A stretch of DNA of 41,265 nt from Actinomycetota bacterium (GTDB lineage: Bacteria > Actinomycetota > Aquicultoria > SKW223): positions 1-41,265 of the forward strand of contig JAOADC010000051.1 in assembly GCA_026417515.1 (NCBI GenBank), written 5' to 3'. Made by a program: the position numbers and the translations under genes. Below the pieces are notes generated by a model, which worked only from the letters and a program-made list of their open reading frames with translations, was not told the origin of the DNA and did no database searches. Positions 2,499 to 28,910 of this stretch are shown here, piece after piece. Every line of letters starts with the position of its first letter. Positions within the stretch are counted from its first letter, which is position 1.

Positions 2499-4557
2499 TC
2501 TTAAATTTTATTTTAGATAATGCTTTTTCTGCTTCTTCCTCTAACAGATGCTTCTCGATTCTTAAACCATAGCGATACTGCTCATATCTCTGAAGGAACC
2601 CATTAAGATCAGGAGCATAAGGAGTTCTTCCAAACCATTCTCTAAGTGTCTCACCTTTTTCTCTTCTGTAACCTTGTTTCTCTAAAAAGGCAAAAACCTT
2701 ATAAATATTGCTTTTACTGCTTGTTTTTGAAATCCTTAGAAAAATAAAGATTAGGATAATCATCACAGCAGGAATCAATAAATATCGACTGAGTGTGTTC
2801 CATTTGATTGAGTAACTTCTATCTCTAACTCCTTGCGATCCTTCGAAAATCCTTTCGATAATTCCTAAGAGCATTTCCGACCAGGAATTCCTATTCTTGC
2901 CTGGATCTTCAAAACCAGGCGTCGGGTCAACTGATATCCAGCCCATTCCATTAATGTAAACCTCTGCCCATGCATGACCATGCTTTTCCTTTATCTCGTA
3001 ATAACCTGTGAACGGATTGAAATCACCTTCTGTGTATCCTGTTACTAGCCTTGAAGGAATTCCAATTGCCCTACAGAGAACCACGAAGGCAGAAGCAAAA
3101 TGCTCACAATAGCCTCTTTTTGCTTCAAAAAGAAAGAAATCAACAGAATCACGGTTTTCAGGAAAATGTGGAATTGAAAGATCGTATTTATATTTCTCCT
3201 GTAGATATTTCTCAATCAAAAGCATTTTTTCATAGTCGTCATTTGCGCCTCTGGTGATCCTCCTGGCAAGGATAATTACTCTTTCTGGCAACTTCTTTGG
3301 AAGGCTTAAATAAATATTTTTAACAGCACCTTTTCTTTTTAGAACCACAGGCGCTTCCTTTTTAAGTTTTTCGTAGATCTTTTGGTAGTCTGTTTTTACA
3401 ATGGATTCAACGGTATAGACAGTTTCTTCAGGAATGATAAATGGGGCTTTCATACAAAATGCCTCAGAAATCCAGTATTGGCTAAACGGTAGATACACTG
3501 TACTTGGTGCGTAAGGTGATAGCAAGAAATTTGAAAATTCTTTTTTTACTGTAAATATACTTATAACCCTGACTTCGCTATCAGAAAAAAAGTAGGGCTC
3601 TTTTTTAAGAACCGGTGTCCCATATTCCTCGGCAAAATCCCTGAAGTTCTTCAAGCCTTCAGTTTTCCAACCCTTACCATCATAAACAGTGTAAACTTCA
3701 GCACGGTATAAGATTGGCAAAGTTGTCTTTACCAAAAATACAATCTCGTCGCTTAAAGTACCTCTAACATTTAAATTTAGATAATCACTGACTCCAAAGT
3801 AAGAACCATTGACCACCTTTGCTTGGCCTTTTTTTGCGTAATAAGCATTGATGAGACCACCTCTGAAGTTTGCAAAAGGTCTAATTGATTCACTCATCTT
3901 TCTTGGAATTGCTGTCAGGAATGCTCCCTTAGGCTTTGGAACTGCGAGAAAGAAAATAATTGAAACAAAAAGGACAAATACAAATCTATAAATAAACGGT
4001 AAGGCATTCTTAAGAGAAATCTTTGGTTCAATTCCGTGCATTGAATAACCATCAAAGTGGTTCCATAAACCTGTTAAAAAAACAACACTGAGCACGTAAA
4101 AACTAAATAGATTGTTTAAAGAATAAGTTGAAGCAACTGAAACAAGTACCAGTGAAATTATTACCTGGAAGAAGAGATCCTTTCTTTCAGGAAGGTCAAA
4201 AGTATGCAGAACACCCAGACCAACCAACAGATGAATCAAGGGCAAACGGGAATCAGTTCCAGATAATCTGAGATCAAAAAAGTAGAAAAGCATAAGAAGC
4301 AGAAGCATCAAACTTAAAAAACCTTTAAGCGCATAATTAGGCTTGTTTCTTGTCCTGTAAGCAAAATACGAACCAAAAACAGAAACGGAAATTAAAAGAA
4401 GAACCAAAGACCAGTTCATCAATTCAACCTGAATAAGAGAAACAAGAGAAACTGCAAAGGCAAGCGCAGAAAGAATTCTTGTAATCTTTGAGTTTTCTAT
4501 GTTCTTTGGTGTATTTATCTTTACAAATTTTTCTGCGACTTTTCTTAGAAAAGCCAT
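2473..4557 (-). CDS. Transglutaminase-like membrane protein (TgpA/DUF3488 type)
   Basis: N-terminal multi-TM, then RGYCEHFASAFVVLCRAIGIPSRLVTGYTEG and HAWAEVYINGMGWISVDPTPG (transglutaminase core Cys/His/Asp). Confidence 0.92.
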   Translation of the reverse strand: MAFLRKVAEKFVKINTPKNIENSKITRILSALAFAVSLVSLIQVELMNWSLVLLLISVSVFGSYFAYRTRNKPNYALKGFLSLMLLLLMLFYFFDLRLSGTDSRLPLIHLLVGLGVLHTFDLPERKDLFFQVIISLVLVSVASTYSLNNLFSFYVLSVVFLTGLWNHFDGYSMHGIEPKISLKNALPFIYRFVFVLFVSIIFFLAVPKPKGAFLTAIPRKMSESIRPFANFRGGLINAYYAKKGQAKVVNGSYFGVSDYLNLNVRGTLSDEIVFLVKTTLPILYRAEVYTVYDGKGWKTEGLKNFRDFAEEYGTPVLKKEPYFFSDSEVRVISIFTVKKEFSNFLLSPYAPSTVYLPFSQYWISEAFCMKAPFIIPEETVYTVESIVKTDYQKIYEKLKKEAPVVLKRKGAVKNIYLSLPKKLPERVIILARRITRGANDDYEKMLLIEKYLQEKYKYDLSIPHFPENRDSVDFFLFEAKRGYCEHFASAFVVLCRAIGIPSRLVTGYTEGDFNPFTGYYEIKEKHGHAWAEVYINGMGWISVDPTPGFEDPGKNRNSWSEMLLGIIERIFEGSQGVRDRSYSIKWNTLSRYLLIPAVMIILIFIFLRISKTSSKSNIYKVFAFLEKQGYRREKGETLREWFGRTPYAPDLNGFLQRYEQYRYGLRIEKHLLEEEAEKALSKIKFKNGKTNNKG

Positions 4558-6799: not shown

Positions 6800-9091
6800 G
6801 TGGTATCGATAATGGGCAAGATAATTCAATCCTATTCAAGAACATCTTTGGGGGTGAAATCTTTGAGTAAAAGAAGCTTCTTATTTCTAGTGGCTGTTTT
6901 TGTTCTGATTGCTGCTTCAACTGCCCTTGCGGCTGATATTAAACCTAAGGTTTACAACAAGCAATCTCAGCACAGTGATTTCAGCTACTACTCAAATGGT
7001 CAAGATAGGGGCTACGATTTCAGCGGATTTACAACTTCTACCCACATCTACGGAACCTGGAACAATCCATACAAAGCTGGCATAGATGCCTATAACTACA
7101 ACGATGCTCAAGGGTACACACAACTTGGTCAGGGCGGAGTTCTTTTTGTCTGGGGTGAAAGTATCCTTCCAATGCTACAACAGATGGGTTACTCAAGCGA
7201 ACAGGCAAAGATGTACTTCCCCCTCTCTCTCCAAGCTGGCACAAAGTTTAGTTACACTGATCCGAACAAAGCAACAATGCAAAACGTCGGACAGGGTCCG
7301 CACGGCGGCTACACGACAACCACTCACAAATGTCGAGAGTGCCATGCCGTGCACCGTGCATCTGGTAAGTTCAAGCTTCTGCGTGCCGACTCGAGAGTCG
7401 AAGCTTGCGATTGGTGCCACGGACAAGGTGCTGGCTCTGGCTACAACATCCAGATGGACAATGATGATAGCCTGACACAGGAGTACAATGTTGGACACAC
7501 ACTTGGCTTTGGCAACAAAGATGGAGATTATAAGGCTCCAGACGACACCTATCCAGCATACACACCTAAGTACTACATGGGTGGCTTTTCTTGTATTGAT
7601 TGCCACAGCCCTCACGGCAATCCACAGAGACTCCTTGGATTTATGGATCAAGGAAGAATGTTCAATCCACAGGCTAATCTTCCATTCTCACGTGGAGATA
7701 ACGGAAACTCTGTCTTCTACAAGTTAGGCGTCCAGGTATCTGGTTTTATTTCCAACCCTGGCGAAAACGATGAAAACACTGAAATGATGCGTGTGCCCTG
7801 GCCTCTTAACGTAAGAAGACCTGCCTACGAAGTAACAATGACTATAGATCTTGGTATGGGACCAATGCAGGTTGCAGTATTCAATGTCTGGCAGGCTGCA
7901 GCTGATGGAGTTTCCTGGTTGGCAAGAAGACCAATTGTTCCTGGTGGGCGCTATCTGTTGATTGAAAACCCAGATGTGGAAATTGTGAATGGACAGGAAA
8001 TTCCAGATTATTCTCTTGCAAAGGTAAACTTCCCCGGCGATGGAAATCAGTATCCAGTCAATAAGTCAGCAACCAGTTGGGACTTCCCATATGGTACAGT
8101 ATCAGAAGATGACCTTTTAGGTGATAATGTTGGAAACTTTGTAAATCCATTATGCGCTGCAGTAACAATTAGCCAGTTCTGTCAGGACTGCCACGATGGT
8201 AACGCTGGTCTTCATACGCAGCCTACCCCTCTTTTCAGCGAAGATAGAGCCGCTCGTGGAGAGAAGGGAGCAAGCGCGTACGACATAGGCTACGGACACG
8301 ATACAAATCCAAGACACTGTGGTCGTCAGATGAAGTTTAATCCAGAAGATGCTAATGCTGAATCTGGAACTGGCAACTTTGGACCACATTGTAGAAACTG
8401 CCACAGAGGCGCTTCCTCTTGCGATCGCTGCCACGAAAATGGATTGATTGGAACAACAGATACTGCACTTGCAGCCTACAATGTTGAAGAAAACTATCCT
8501 GAGTTTGTTTCAAGCACCTTTGGATCCAATGCTTCTACCTTCCCAGCAAGCTGGCCACTCTATGGAGGACTCTCAAACATTGGATTCCCTGCTGGATTCC
8601 CAATCTCCTGGCTTGAGGCTTTTGGATTCGATGGTGCACACTACAACAAGACAACTCATATACGTACTGCAAACGAACGCTGGTATCATGAAAGAACAGT
8701 TGCCTGGGCATCTGATTGGCGCACAAACGCAACCCAATTAAGCCCTATGTGTTCTGACGATGGTTTCAGTTTCCCACATAGAACAATGGGTTATATGATG
8801 CTCAAGGACGAGTTATTCGGTCTTGATTTTGATGGAACTCCAGTTGGCGTTGGACAGATAAGAGATGGAATTCCTTCAACAATTTTAAGCGATGGAAGCA
8901 CCACTCAAGTTGCTACAAGCACCTTACCTTCTCAACTATATCAGAAACCTGCACAGGATCTCGATTCTGTATGTCTCGATTGCCACAATCCTACCATCTG
9001 GAATGCTACTTCCTATGACAACCACTTTGACAGCTGGTCAAGATCTGATGATAACTATAACGACGAACTTCTCTTGAGGGGACTTCCATAA
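6800..9091 (+). CDS. Secreted multiheme c-type cytochrome (seven CxxCH motifs)
   Basis: Signal peptide (SKRSFLFLVAVFVLIAASTALA); CRECH, CDWCH, CIDCH, CQDCH, CRNCH, CDRCH, CLDCH. Likely true start is ATG 6812 or TTG 6863 (SD GGGGGTGA at 6850). Confidence 0.9.
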   Translation: MVSIMGKIIQSYSRTSLGVKSLSKRSFLFLVAVFVLIAASTALAADIKPKVYNKQSQHSDFSYYSNGQDRGYDFSGFTTSTHIYGTWNNPYKAGIDAYNYNDAQGYTQLGQGGVLFVWGESILPMLQQMGYSSEQAKMYFPLSLQAGTKFSYTDPNKATMQNVGQGPHGGYTTTTHKCRECHAVHRASGKFKLLRADSRVEACDWCHGQGAGSGYNIQMDNDDSLTQEYNVGHTLGFGNKDGDYKAPDDTYPAYTPKYYMGGFSCIDCHSPHGNPQRLLGFMDQGRMFNPQANLPFSRGDNGNSVFYKLGVQVSGFISNPGENDENTEMMRVPWPLNVRRPAYEVTMTIDLGMGPMQVAVFNVWQAAADGVSWLARRPIVPGGRYLLIENPDVEIVNGQEIPDYSLAKVNFPGDGNQYPVNKSATSWDFPYGTVSEDDLLGDNVGNFVNPLCAAVTISQFCQDCHDGNAGLHTQPTPLFSEDRAARGEKGASAYDIGYGHDTNPRHCGRQMKFNPEDANAESGTGNFGPHCRNCHRGASSCDRCHENGLIGTTDTALAAYNVEENYPEFVSSTFGSNASTFPASWPLYGGLSNIGFPAGFPISWLEAFGFDGAHYNKTTHIRTANERWYHERTVAWASDWRTNATQLSPMCSDDGFSFPHRTMGYMMLKDELFGLDFDGTPVGVGQIRDGIPSTILSDGSTTQVATSTLPSQLYQKPAQDLDSVCLDCHNPTIWNATSYDNHFDSWSRSDDNYNDELLLRGLP

Positions 9092-9801: not shown

Positions 9802-11539
9802 ATCTTTTCATCCTTTCAATTCTTCTCTTTTTAATCTCATCTTTAAGTTCATTTAAAGAAAATGTATTTAGAATATCGCTTTTTTCCAACCACCCTCGTC
9901 TTGCTGTTGTAACACCATATTTAATTAAAGGTAGATGGGAGACTGAATGAGAATCTGTGCCAATGATAAACTTTACACCATATCTTTTGGCTAGCCTTAT
10001 AAGCCTTGGTGGTAGGTCTAGCCTGTCTGGAAAAGAATTAATTTCAAAAAGAGTTCCTGTTTTTGCAGCCTCTTCAAAAACTCGCTCAAAGTCTATGTCT
10101 GCTTCAGGTCTCTTTAATAGAAGTCTAGTTGTCGGATGGCCAATAGCATCTACGTAAGGATTTTGCATTACCTTAATAAGTCTTTCAGTTATCTTGTCTC
10201 TATCTGACGAAAGTCCCCAGTGGAGTGAAGCGATGCAGAAGTCAAATTCTTTAAGCACAGATTCTTCATAGTCAACCTGACCGTCTTTATCGATGTTCAG
10301 TTCAATTCCTTTCAGTAAAACGATTTTACCTGCATACTTCTCATTAATTTCATCAATGGCTTCATTTCTTGCTTTGAGCTGCTCTAACGTTAAACCTCTT
10401 GCAACCATCAGTCTTTTTGCGTGGTCAGTAACTGATATATATTCGTATCCCATATGTTCAGCAATGTAGGCAAGGTCTTCTAAGCTTGCTGAACTGTCTG
10501 ACCAGTCAGAGTGAATATGTAGGTCTCCTTTAATGTCTTTAGAACACAAAAGTTTTGGTAGTGTTCCATTCTTTGCTGCTTCAATTTCTCCCCAATCTTC
10601 TCTTAGCTCAGGTGGTATGTAATGAAGACCCAGAAATTCGTAGAGTTCTTCTTCAGAAGAAAAGGTTAGAAGTTTTCCATTTTTTAAGAAAATCCCCTCG
10701 TGCGTAAGGCGATTTCCAGAACTCTTGGCAATCTGTCTCAATCGTATGTTGTGTTCTTTAGATCCAGTTAAATGCAAAAGTGCTGCGCCTTTTTTCTCTT
10801 CAGTTGTAATCAAAAAGTCAAACTGGACGCCTTTGTCATCAATTACTCGAGTTATTTCCTCGCCTTCCACCACGCTGGATGTATTTCCAGTTCTCTTAAT
10901 AAAATGGCTCAGAGCTTTTCCTGAATCAGCACCAAATATTAAGAAATCCAGATCCCCTACGGTTTCTTTTCCTCTTCTTAGGGAACCTGCAATCATCAGA
11001 TTCACTTCAGGATGATATTTACCGAAAAACTCTCTAATTCTATAAGATAATTCTTCTGCCTCATTTAATAGCATTCTTTCATAAGAGAGTTCTTTGTTTG
11101 AGAGTGCTGCTCTCAGTTTCGAAAGGGTTTTTGAACTTATTCCCCTTGCTTCCTTTATCTTTCCAGTAAAAAGTGCTTCCTTAAGATCTGATATGTTTGA
11201 AATTCCGAACTGGTCAAAAAGAATTTTGGCTGTTTTTGGTCCTATGTGAGGAATTTTTAAGAGCTCGACAATCTCTATCGGTATTTTCTTTTGGATCTCC
11301 TCAAGAAGAGGTAGCCTTCCTTCTTCAACATATTTTTGTATCTGTTGAGAAATGCTTTTTCCTATGCCTGGTAGTGCTTCTAACTCACCTTTGCGAACAA
11401 GACTACGAATATCTTCAGGAATTGCCCTTATTGATTGAGCAGCTTTTAGATACGCCTTGGCTTTAAATGGATTTTCTCCAGTTATTTCCAATAATTCGCT
11501 TAAAGTCTCAAGTTTCTTAGCAAGTTCTTCGTTTGTCAT
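9794..11539 (-). CDS. polX: PolX-type DNA polymerase (beta-like) with PHP domain
   Basis: HhH GIGKSISQQI and HIGPKTAKILFDQFG; SLRRGKETVGDLDFLI; DLHIHSDWSDSSASLEDLAYIAEHMGYEYISVTDH. Confidence 0.95.
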   Translation of the reverse strand: MTNEELAKKLETLSELLEITGENPFKAKAYLKAAQSIRAIPEDIRSLVRKGELEALPGIGKSISQQIQKYVEEGRLPLLEEIQKKIPIEIVELLKIPHIGPKTAKILFDQFGISNISDLKEALFTGKIKEARGISSKTLSKLRAALSNKELSYERMLLNEAEELSYRIREFFGKYHPEVNLMIAGSLRRGKETVGDLDFLIFGADSGKALSHFIKRTGNTSSVVEGEEITRVIDDKGVQFDFLITTEEKKGAALLHLTGSKEHNIRLRQIAKSSGNRLTHEGIFLKNGKLLTFSSEEELYEFLGLHYIPPELREDWGEIEAAKNGTLPKLLCSKDIKGDLHIHSDWSDSSASLEDLAYIAEHMGYEYISVTDHAKRLMVARGLTLEQLKARNEAIDEINEKYAGKIVLLKGIELNIDKDGQVDYEESVLKEFDFCIASLHWGLSSDRDKITERLIKVMQNPYVDAIGHPTTRLLLKRPEADIDFERVFEEAAKTGTLFEINSFPDRLDLPPRLIRLAKRYGVKFIIGTDSHSVSHLPLIKYGVTTARRGWLEKSDILNTFSLNELKDEIKKRRIERMKRYG

Positions 11540-12993
11540 CAGATATTACTATAAGCGCTGCCAAACAATCTTTCAAAAATCTTTCTCTGCTTATCTTCCT
11601 CTTCTTTTATCCAGTTTTCTTCCCTTACAACAATTTCTTCTGCAATCTTGATTTGAGTCAGCACAGAGGATCTTGAAGTTCCACCTACAGAAGTTTTTTT
11701 CTCAAGAGATAATTCAATGTTAAAAATTTCATAATAGTCATCTTCAAATATAGGAGAGATTGATTTCAATTCGTCCAATTCAATTTCAGATAACTTCTTT
11801 CCACTCTCTTCGCTATGCTTAACAACTCTACCTACTATCTCGTGTGCCTTGCGGAAGGGAACACCCTTCCTGACAAGATAATCTGCAATATCTGTTGCCA
11901 GTAGATATTCGTCAGAGGCTGCCTCTTTCATTCTCTCCACATCAAAATGCAAAGTTCTTATGACATCTGAAAAAATTCTAAGAACGGTACACATATTCTC
12001 AGAAATCTCGCAAGCAAAAACCCTATCTTCTTGTAAATCCCTGTTATAGGTTAGAGGTAGTGATTTTAGAACAGTTGCAACCTGGACCCACGCACCAATT
12101 ACCCTTCCTGAAAATGCTCTAATTAGCTCAAGCGAATCAGGGTTCTTCTTCTGTGGCATAAGTGAAGAACCTGTGCTATATTTCTCTCCCACTTCTACAA
12201 AACCAAATTCTTTTGTGTTCCAGCAAATAATTTCTTCAGAAAACCTCGATATGTGAAGTATAAGATTGACAGCCTGTGATAGGAAATGTAGAACGAAGTC
12301 CCTGTCTGAAACAGCATCCATAGAGTTTTGAGAAGGATCTTTAAAACCAAGCATTTCAGAAATGAGTTTTCTATTTAAGCCAAAACTGTTGCCTGCCAGA
12401 GCACCTGATCCAAGTGGACAAAAGTCCATCTTCTTTCTGGCGCTAACAAATCTGTCGAAATCTCTCTTAAGCATAAAAAACCAACTCAGTAGATGGTGAG
12501 CTAAACGAACAGGTTGCGCCCTTTGCATATGGGTATAACCTGGAATTACATCATCGATATGAATTCTTGCTTTTTCAAGAATACTGTGATGGATGCTCAG
12601 AATGCCTGAATTGATTTCTAAAATTTTTCTTTTCAAAAAAAGTCTTAAATCAGTGGCAATCTGTTCGTTTCTGGAGCGACCTGTATGCACTTTAAGCGCA
12701 GATTCACCTATGAGTTCAAAAAGCGATCTTTCAACAGCGCTGTGAATATCTTCGTCTTCTCTGCTCCAGAATGGTCTTCCAGCACTAGTGTTTAAATACA
12801 TATTTCTTAAAGCATCAATGATTGTCCTTTTTTCTTCATCCGTTAAAATCCCTGCATCGTTTAGAGCATATACATAGGCAGCATTTTGCAGGATCTCTTC
12901 ACGCCAGAGGTACGAATCAGTTGCAATCGAAGATGAAAACTCTAAGAATGCTTTATCTGGTTCTTCTGAAAAACGACCTCCCCAGAGTTTCAA
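11539..12993 (-). CDS. argH: Argininosuccinate lyase
   Basis: MKLWGGRFSEEPD; GSSLMPQKKNPDSLELIRAFSGR. Confidence 0.97.
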   Translation of the reverse strand: MKLWGGRFSEEPDKAFLEFSSSIATDSYLWREEILQNAAYVYALNDAGILTDEEKRTIIDALRNMYLNTSAGRPFWSREDEDIHSAVERSLFELIGESALKVHTGRSRNEQIATDLRLFLKRKILEINSGILSIHHSILEKARIHIDDVIPGYTHMQRAQPVRLAHHLLSWFFMLKRDFDRFVSARKKMDFCPLGSGALAGNSFGLNRKLISEMLGFKDPSQNSMDAVSDRDFVLHFLSQAVNLILHISRFSEEIICWNTKEFGFVEVGEKYSTGSSLMPQKKNPDSLELIRAFSGRVIGAWVQVATVLKSLPLTYNRDLQEDRVFACEISENMCTVLRIFSDVIRTLHFDVERMKEAASDEYLLATDIADYLVRKGVPFRKAHEIVGRVVKHSEESGKKLSEIELDELKSISPIFEDDYYEIFNIELSLEKKTSVGGTSRSSVLTQIKIAEEIVVREENWIKEEEDKQRKIFERLFGSAYSNI

Positions 12994-26867: not shown

Positions 26868-27746
26868 TTAACCAGATCTCTTGAACAATCTCCTGACAAG
26901 AAAGTAAAGGCCATAGGTTACTAAGAGGACACCGGCTATAGGAATGAGAGCAACCATAACAGCCAGTGTCTTTCGAGTGCTTCTTTGAAGCACCAAAATC
27001 AATTCTTTCAGTGTTCTGCTCCACCAATTTCTCTCGCCTTTAACCAGTTCTGGGCTTTGAATAACAACAGTAAGTAAGCTGAGTTCAACTCTTTCCTCTA
27101 TCTCTTTCAGCCTCTTTTCAAGCTGGGCGACTTCCTTCCTTAAAGACCTTGATCGGTCCCTGATTTTTAAAATTTCGTTAACATCTTTTGCCTTGCTGAG
27201 AAGCGATTCAACTGCTTGTAACTCTTCTTTTGCGACCTTCAGCTCAGCTTCAAGATCCAGAAACTCCTCTGTCACATCTTGTTTTGTCAGGTTATAAGTT
27301 ATGAATTCGTATCTCTTACGAAGATTATCTACAAGTGACTCATACTTTTCTTCAGGCACTGCCAGCGTTACAACAGCATTTGGATAATCTCCACCAGTTA
27401 TCTGTTCAGAAACAACTGTACTACCAAAACTCTTGGCTGTCTGAATTATTTCGCTGGTTGCTTTTTTTACTTCACTATTCAAGATTTCCAGATATCCAGT
27501 TTTTATCACCTTCTGACCAAGAACGGAATCACTGACGGCTTTCTGTCCTGTTGATACTTCAACGCCTTTGGAGGGAACACTTGAAGTGCGAGATCCATAA
27601 TCCATCGTCTTTTCTACTGGATAATCAATGCCCGAACCATCAGAAATTATATCTAAGTTTATAAAGACATCTTGCAAAACTACAAAAACAAAGACTGAAA
27701 TTAAGGCCACAATCAAATATATGGCAATTTTCCGCATTTTTGCCAC
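26868..27746 (-). CDS. DUF4349-domain membrane protein
   Basis: KVIKTGYLEILNSEVKKATSEIIQTAKSFGSTVVSEQITGG...VTLAVPEEKYESLVDNL with coiled coil and C-terminal TM. Confidence 0.82.
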   Translation of the reverse strand: MAKMRKIAIYLIVALISVFVFVVLQDVFINLDIISDGSGIDYPVEKTMDYGSRTSSVPSKGVEVSTGQKAVSDSVLGQKVIKTGYLEILNSEVKKATSEIIQTAKSFGSTVVSEQITGGDYPNAVVTLAVPEEKYESLVDNLRKRYEFITYNLTKQDVTEEFLDLEAELKVAKEELQAVESLLSKAKDVNEILKIRDRSRSLRKEVAQLEKRLKEIEERVELSLLTVVIQSPELVKGERNWWSRTLKELILVLQRSTRKTLAVMVALIPIAGVLLVTYGLYFLVRRLFKRSG

Positions 27747-27810
27747 CTCCGACCTAAACCCATATTAACATAATGAGATAATAAATATGACTATTAAGTC
27801 AGGTGAAAAG

Positions 27811-28137
27811 ATGATAGAGATAACCCTTGTCGGCTCTATAGGATGCAAAGGAACATCAGAAACTGAAAAACTGATACTTGAAGTAATTGAAGAATTAGGA
27901 ATTAAAGATAGAGTCTCCTTCAAGAAAGTAATCTATACTGGCATTGAAAGTGAATTCAATCCACCGATCTTCGGTAGTCCAACAGTTCTTATTAATGGAA
28001 AGGATATTATTTACGAAAGAGATGATCTTCCGATTACCACCGCCTGACGCGTCTACTCAAATCCTGCTGGTCAAGCAAGGACTCCTTCAAAAGAGATAGT
28101 AGTTAAAAAAATAAGAGCCATTTTGGAAAATCTCTGA
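27811..28137 (+). CDS. Putative selenocysteine-containing thioredoxin-like protein (in-frame TGA at 28045-28047 read as Sec)
   Basis: SD AGGTGA at 27801, ATG 27811; MIEITLVGSIGC...FGSPTVLINGKDI...ITTA-U-RVYSNPAGQARTPSKEIVVKKIRAILENL*; hairpin with GGU loop 21 nt after TGA. Confidence 0.65.
28062..28081 (+). promoter_or_regulatory. bSECIS-like hairpin
   Basis: TCCTGCT-[GGTCA]-AGCAaGGA: 7 bp with one bulged A, apical loop starting GGU, starting 15 nt after the TGA. Confidence 0.55.
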
Positions 28138-28421
28138 TCTTGCAAATAATGGGTCTGATACGCAAGCAAACGAAAGCGGGTAACAATTTAAACTTACCAC
28201 AATTAATATGAAACTGATGCTTCAATAAAGTTTCTGTTGGATATTAAGGATTAAATATGCTAACCTCCTTTTGTTTCTAAAAAACTGTCAATCATCAGTC
28301 AAACACTTTTAAGAATCAGTTGAAACTCATCCTTAGAGTTTTTTAAGAAAAATTACTTCAATCCTTTTCAGGAAAGATCTTTTTTGAAATTTTTCTCCTA
28401 CCATATCCTATAATCATTGCC

Positions 28422-28910
28422 ATGCCAGAGTTTCAATTTTTCAAAGAACTTCCACCAGAAGTTGTTTTGTTTATCCTTTCAATGCTACCTCTTTGGGAGT
28501 TAAGAGGCTCCATACCTCTAGGTATACATGCTTTCTCAATGACAGCTTTTTCGTCTTTCTTTTGGTCCTTCTTAGGAAATTTCACAGCTGGAGTGCTGCT
28601 TGTCTATCTTCTCGAACCTGCCGTCAAATATGTTGTTACGAAGGTTAAATTCCTTAACAATTTTTACGAAAAAGTTGCTGAAAGAGCGAAGAGAAAGCAT
28701 GCCAAGAAAGTCGAACTGTATGCTGAGATGGCTATATTTATAATTGTTGCCTTACCTTTGCCCGGAACCGGCGCCTGGACAGGTGCTTTGGTTTCAAGAA
28801 TATTTCGGTTAAACAAAAAAGCATCAATATTAAGTATAGGTTTAGGTCTAATCGTTTGCGGTCTCATTGTTCTTGGCCTCTCCTCCTCTATCTCACTTGT
28901 AAAACTTTAA
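28422..28910 (+). CDS. Small multidrug export-type membrane protein (COG2426-like)
   Basis: LPLWELRGSIPLGIHAF; ALPLPGTGAWTGALVSRIFRL. Confidence 0.85.
   Translation: MPEFQFFKELPPEVVLFILSMLPLWELRGSIPLGIHAFSMTAFSSFFWSFLGNFTAGVLLVYLLEPAVKYVVTKVKFLNNFYEKVAERAKRKHAKKVELYAEMAIFIIVALPLPGTGAWTGALVSRIFRLNKKASILSIGLGLIVCGLIVLGLSSSISLVKL

Follow-up and report, generated by a model that had tools for sequence, protein, structure and literature searches.

A probable selenoprotein with a thioredoxin-like fold in an Actinomycetota genome, and Sec/Cys exchange at two sites of its family

The window, 41,265 nt of contig JAOADC010000051.1 from an Actinomycetota bacterium, contains a short open reading frame which stops at 78 residues when the standard code is applied. 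The frame starts with ATG at 27811, reaches a TGA at 28045-28047, continues for 29 codons (RVYSNPAGQARTPSKEIVVKKIRAILENL), and ends with a second TGA at 28135-28137. This raises the question of whether the first TGA terminates translation or is read as selenocysteine (Sec). An earlier note on this DNA had proposed an unannotated thioredoxin-like selenoprotein. Its coordinates for the reading frame, the TGA, and a downstream hairpin were correct throughout, and the proposal is supported by the presence of Sec machinery, homology beyond the TGA, a TGA in the orthologue, and a hairpin that conforms to the bacterial SECIS rules. By such computational criteria, the gene very probably encodes a selenoprotein. 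Its features are listed in Table 1.

Table 1. Coordinates of the predicted selenoprotein gene and its features in the window
Feature	Coordinates	Strand	Remarks
Whole predicted selenoprotein gene	27811..28137	+	108 residues, Sec at codon 79, ends with TGA 28135-28137
Probable ribosome binding site AGGTGA	27801..27806	+	Assigned from the sequence
Site 1, Cys12 codon TGC	27844..27846	+	Start of helix 1; aligned to the CxxC of thioredoxin at its first Cys; many relatives have Sec here
GSPT motif, residues 55-58	27973..27984	+	Position of the thioredoxin cis-proline loop; based on invariant G55, S56, P57 and the thioredoxin alignment
Site 2, in-frame TGA read as Sec79 (predicted)	28045..28047	+	Within the U-R-V-Y motif
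Post-TGA coding segment	28048..28134	+	R-x-Y, P92, C-terminal helix 94-107
Predicted bacterial SECIS hairpin	28062..28081	+	Apical loop GGUCA
Terminal TGA, taken as the true stop	28135..28137	+	C-termini of the family end at about this position

Coding beyond the in-frame TGA

The in-frame TGA aligns with a conserved Cys of homologous proteins, and homology extends on both sides of it. The region beyond the TGA was evaluated with an HMM built from the post-site-2 regions of 47 relatives, from which the window protein and its sister (see below) had been left out. The 29 residues from the window score 15.3 bits. Shuffled versions of this peptide reach 6.2 bits at best (0 of 5000 attain 15.3), and when 235 further TGA codons of the window with open read-through are scored, the best reaches 5.3 bits (0 of 235 attain 15.3). 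NCBIfam NF049942, an independent curated model, gives the truncated ORF 29.0 bits and the read-through 45.6 bits. Comparison thus shows that the segment after the TGA is coding. The motif given in the earlier note (FGSPTVxVNGxD, then CRVY, then P-x-E), with the TGA falling exactly at its Cys, is broadly right: in a panel of 49 relatives, partly picked by such motifs, G55, S56, P57, C/U79, R80, and P92 do not vary. The terminal TGA was considered as a further Sec codon and was rejected because relatives end at this position and a TAA follows after three codons.

The nearest genome (G001) belongs to the same family but to another genus. Its orthologue, the sister of the window protein, is 30% identical and has a TGA at the same codon (SLGURIY). 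The gene order is the same in the window and G001: downstream of the family gene come a Sm_multidrug_ex gene (PF06695) and then a nadD-like nucleotidyltransferase gene. The two proteins are joined in the tree at 95/92, both on long branches, and the sister scores 54.7 bits against NF049942.

These data bear on three explanations that do without Sec. If the TGA were a real stop, the product would have 78 residues and the downstream frame would be a relic. TGA does terminate 8 of 32 genes in the window in the usual way, but the downstream codons are homologous to those of relatives, including the two invariant residues R80 and P92, the TGA is kept in the orthologue, GC3 is similar before and after it, and the genome has a full Sec system; we regard this explanation as very improbable. 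The assembly is a draft in 69 contigs, so that a sequencing or assembly error in a TGC or TGT codon has to be considered. Such an error, which the earlier note had named as a possible objection, is very unlikely indeed, because the syntenic orthologue, from an independent genome and a different genus, has the same TGA, as do dozens of further relatives. A genome-wide altered code, with TGA read as Trp or Gly, can be dismissed: no support for it was found, TGA is used as a stop by the long window genes counted above, the tRNA-Sec has the anticodon TCA, and the column in question otherwise always holds Cys in relatives.

Selenocysteine machinery and the candidate SECIS hairpin

The window genome was searched for selA, selB, selD, and tRNA-Sec, as had been suggested in the earlier note. 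All four were found on a single contig (C39) of this 1.25 Mb assembly: selA at 7539, selB at 8927, tRNA-Sec at 10827, and selD at 11943. The tRNA-Sec scores 79.3 bits and is reported by ARAGORN as tRNA-SeC with anticodon tca. The selD gene has its own in-frame TGA (SGUASKI), which is followed by a strong SECIS hairpin. G001 has selA and also a selD with TGA. Across the genomes compared, selA is present in 24 of 26 with TGA copies of the gene versus 7 of 15 with Cys-only copies (Fisher p = 0.002). The two genomes with TGA copies in which selA was not found are G027 (97% complete; L032, G027:C31) and G035 (77% complete; L037, G035:C84); either contigs are missing or these genes are decaying.

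As a separate observation, three relatives from the class of the window genome resemble it in that selD is itself a selenoprotein gene (L018 around 1531; L083, L084, L086).

The hairpin downstream of the TGA consists of TCCTGCT (28062-28068), the loop GGTCA (28069-28073), and AGCA(a)GGA (28074-28081). The geometry described in the earlier note (7 bp, one bulged A, GGU loop at 21 nt) was confirmed: a spacer of 14 nt separates the TGA from the stem, and the loop starts 21 nt after the TGA. The rules for bacterial SECIS elements call for a loop of 3-9 nt, a G in the first two loop positions, a distance of 16-37 nt from the TGA, and an MFE of -7.5 kcal/mol or lower (PMC13188914). The window hairpin conforms to them, with an MFE of -7.5 kcal/mol that is exactly at the limit. 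Its energy is not significant in comparison to shuffled sequences (z-scores +0.48 to -0.87). Of random in-frame positions in the genes of the window, 8% have a hairpin that does as well (3.8% if the loop is required at 17-23 nt), and the same holds for 9.4% of synonymous recodings. Because chance positions and recodings pass this often, the hairpin alone is too weak to carry the claim.

Additional indications come from comparison. When the segment +13..+43 after the TGA is placed at a fixed offset against the SECIS of selD from the same genome, 22 of 31 positions match, with the common string AUCCUGYURGUC....AGGAYUCYUUCAAA. When all 82,410 positions of the window (both strands) are compared in this way, no second one attains 22, and the runner-up among TGA codons has 17 matches. 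The segment was picked after inspection, and this likeness is therefore taken as supporting evidence only. A fixed-offset comparison of +12..+30 with the same SECIS was unremarkable (10 of 18). Within the family, a hairpin conforming to the rules is found after 95% of the 41 Sec codons at site 2 but after only 59% of the 32 Cys codons there (p = 0.0016), although GC content is lower in the Sec set. A scan of 27400-28500 against Rfam gave no meaningful match and no SECIS family.

A family with two interchangeable Sec/Cys sites

NF049942 corresponds to the protein that Xiao & Zhang 2025 described as "hypothetical protein DF", for Desulfosediminicola flagellatus only and with no TGA homologues (PMC12013277). 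The DF protein is listed with one Sec in a 2026 review (PMC13188914). The homology of the window protein to this family spans residues 5-98, and the two have in common GSPT, R80, P92, and both Cys/Sec sites. It differs in that the published case is a single Sec in D. flagellatus, and in that the 45.6 bits of the window protein are below the curated cut-off of 70. It is thus related to the DF family but divergent, and outside the curated bound. Single-sequence searches of Pfam and PDB gave no meaningful match, an alignment being required, and a search for related loci with the single window protein retrieved no relative, the query being too divergent.

Comparison of family members shows that Sec and Cys are interchangeable at two positions, 67 residues apart: site 1 (Cys12 in the window protein) and site 2 (residue 79). 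With the states given in the order site 1, site 2 (C, Cys; U, Sec), the 49-member panel comprises 23 CC, 13 CU, 9 UC, and 4 UU proteins; the window protein is CU. The Sec/Cys labels change at least 7 times on the tree. The DF-type family is widespread. A pattern scan for Sec at site 2 across 84,980 species returned ten stretches, and all ten are family members. For one Desulfobulbaceae member, 30 loci from its order (258 genomes) were examined: CU accounts for 25 of them and UU for two, one of these scored by eye. D. flagellatus is placed in the Desulfobulbales, and the published Sec of this species is therefore probably at site 2, too. Within the literature accessible to us, the two-site Sec/Cys exchange across the family and the CU form in the lineage of the window are new.

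Several loci deserve mention in their own right. TGA occurs at both sites, as in double selenoproteins, in L064, L071, L073, L074, L109, and L111; L073 and L074 are from two genomes of one genus, and both TGAs are kept in each. In L110 (G623:C89:16923-17195), an extra in-frame TGA is found four codons before site 2 (RTDUGLGURMY). It is a single case and would give the family a third position for Sec. The Desulfobulbaceae contig WGCP01000453.1 (L070, reverse-strand frames at 3395 and 5320) carries the family gene as two partial pieces, which may represent a degraded duplicate.

Predicted fold and possible function

The structure predicted by AlphaFold2 (pLDDT 91.2, pTM 0.84) is thioredoxin-like. 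Thioredoxins and SelW-like proteins are the nearest folds, with modest scores; Foldseek gave no match at E <= 0.001, the TM score being about 0.5. The family profile aligns with the small archaeal-type thioredoxin MJ0307 of M. jannaschii (PDB 1fo5) at E = 2e-8 over residues 2-64, which does not cover the insert of the family. The two share the beta-alpha-beta core, the Cys at the start of helix 1, the cis-proline region, and the final helix. Cys12 aligns with the first Cys of CPHC, but the second Cys is missing in the window family. To match the last helix of 1fo5, the alignment has to skip the insert with C/U-R-x-Y, which precedes this helix in DF proteins. The active-site stretch of the window protein is C12-K-G-T, so that it has neither CxxC nor UxxC nor CxxU. 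SelW-like (Rdx) proteins such as PDB 2obk and 2fa8 also have a small thioredoxin-like fold but show about 13% identity, and their CxxU is absent from the window protein. Sec/Cys exchange is known for the SelW-like family. The thioredoxin-like selenoproteins Sec.1 (CxU) and Sec.2 (UxC), both PF13192 (PMC13188914), likewise have Sec at either of two nearby positions, depending on the subfamily, but these sites are two residues apart rather than 67.

Overall, the best explanation, which we hold with good confidence, is a selenoprotein of the thioredoxin fold with Sec79 specified via the hairpin and with a Cys12/Sec79 pair. SelB would bind the hairpin, and Sec would be inserted at TGA 28045. The catalytic Cys would be kept at the thioredoxin position (Cys12), without the second Cys of CxxC, and its partner would be Sec79, carried by an inserted beta-hairpin that follows the cis-proline sheet and precedes the last helix. 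The two residues would cycle via a selenenylsulfide, leading to the reduction of a disulfide or of an oxidised soft-element substrate. For a redox pair of this kind we see about an even chance; the occurrence of CC, UC, CU, and UU at these two columns would fit a coupled pair. The chances seem just as balanced that the family as a whole is a thioredoxin variant in which the resolving thiol has been relocated from CxxC to the C-terminal hairpin, with Cys and Sec swapped independently at both ends. If so, the CC/UC/CU/UU series would be a natural double-mutant test of which redox partner gains from selenium, and the homologues would address why selenium sits on the attacking versus the resolving residue. 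Annotation pipelines will truncate such genes, and the gene from the window and its sister are in addition below the curated cut-off.

Alternatively, the same selenoprotein might bind a soft metal or metalloid (As, Hg, Cu, Se) through Cys12 and Sec79 and act as a chaperone or sequestering protein. Two invariant soft ligands without CxxC would suit this role, and distant relatives adjoin genes for ArsP-type permeases, an SBF/ACR3-type transporter, ArsR regulators, an LMW-phosphatase/ArsC-type protein, RND efflux, and a multicopper oxidase. However, the window gene and its sister adjoin Sm_multidrug_ex and nadD-like genes and no metal genes, and the fold and the cis-proline loop are of the redox thioredoxin type. 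We thus consider metal binding possible but rather unlikely, and favor the redox pair set out above.

At one further locus (L068, 2601-4721), a CU member occurs with arsenic-type genes beside genes for Se_S_carrier (PF11823) and Sulf_transp (PF04143) proteins. These neighbours suggest selenium or sulfur trafficking at that locus.
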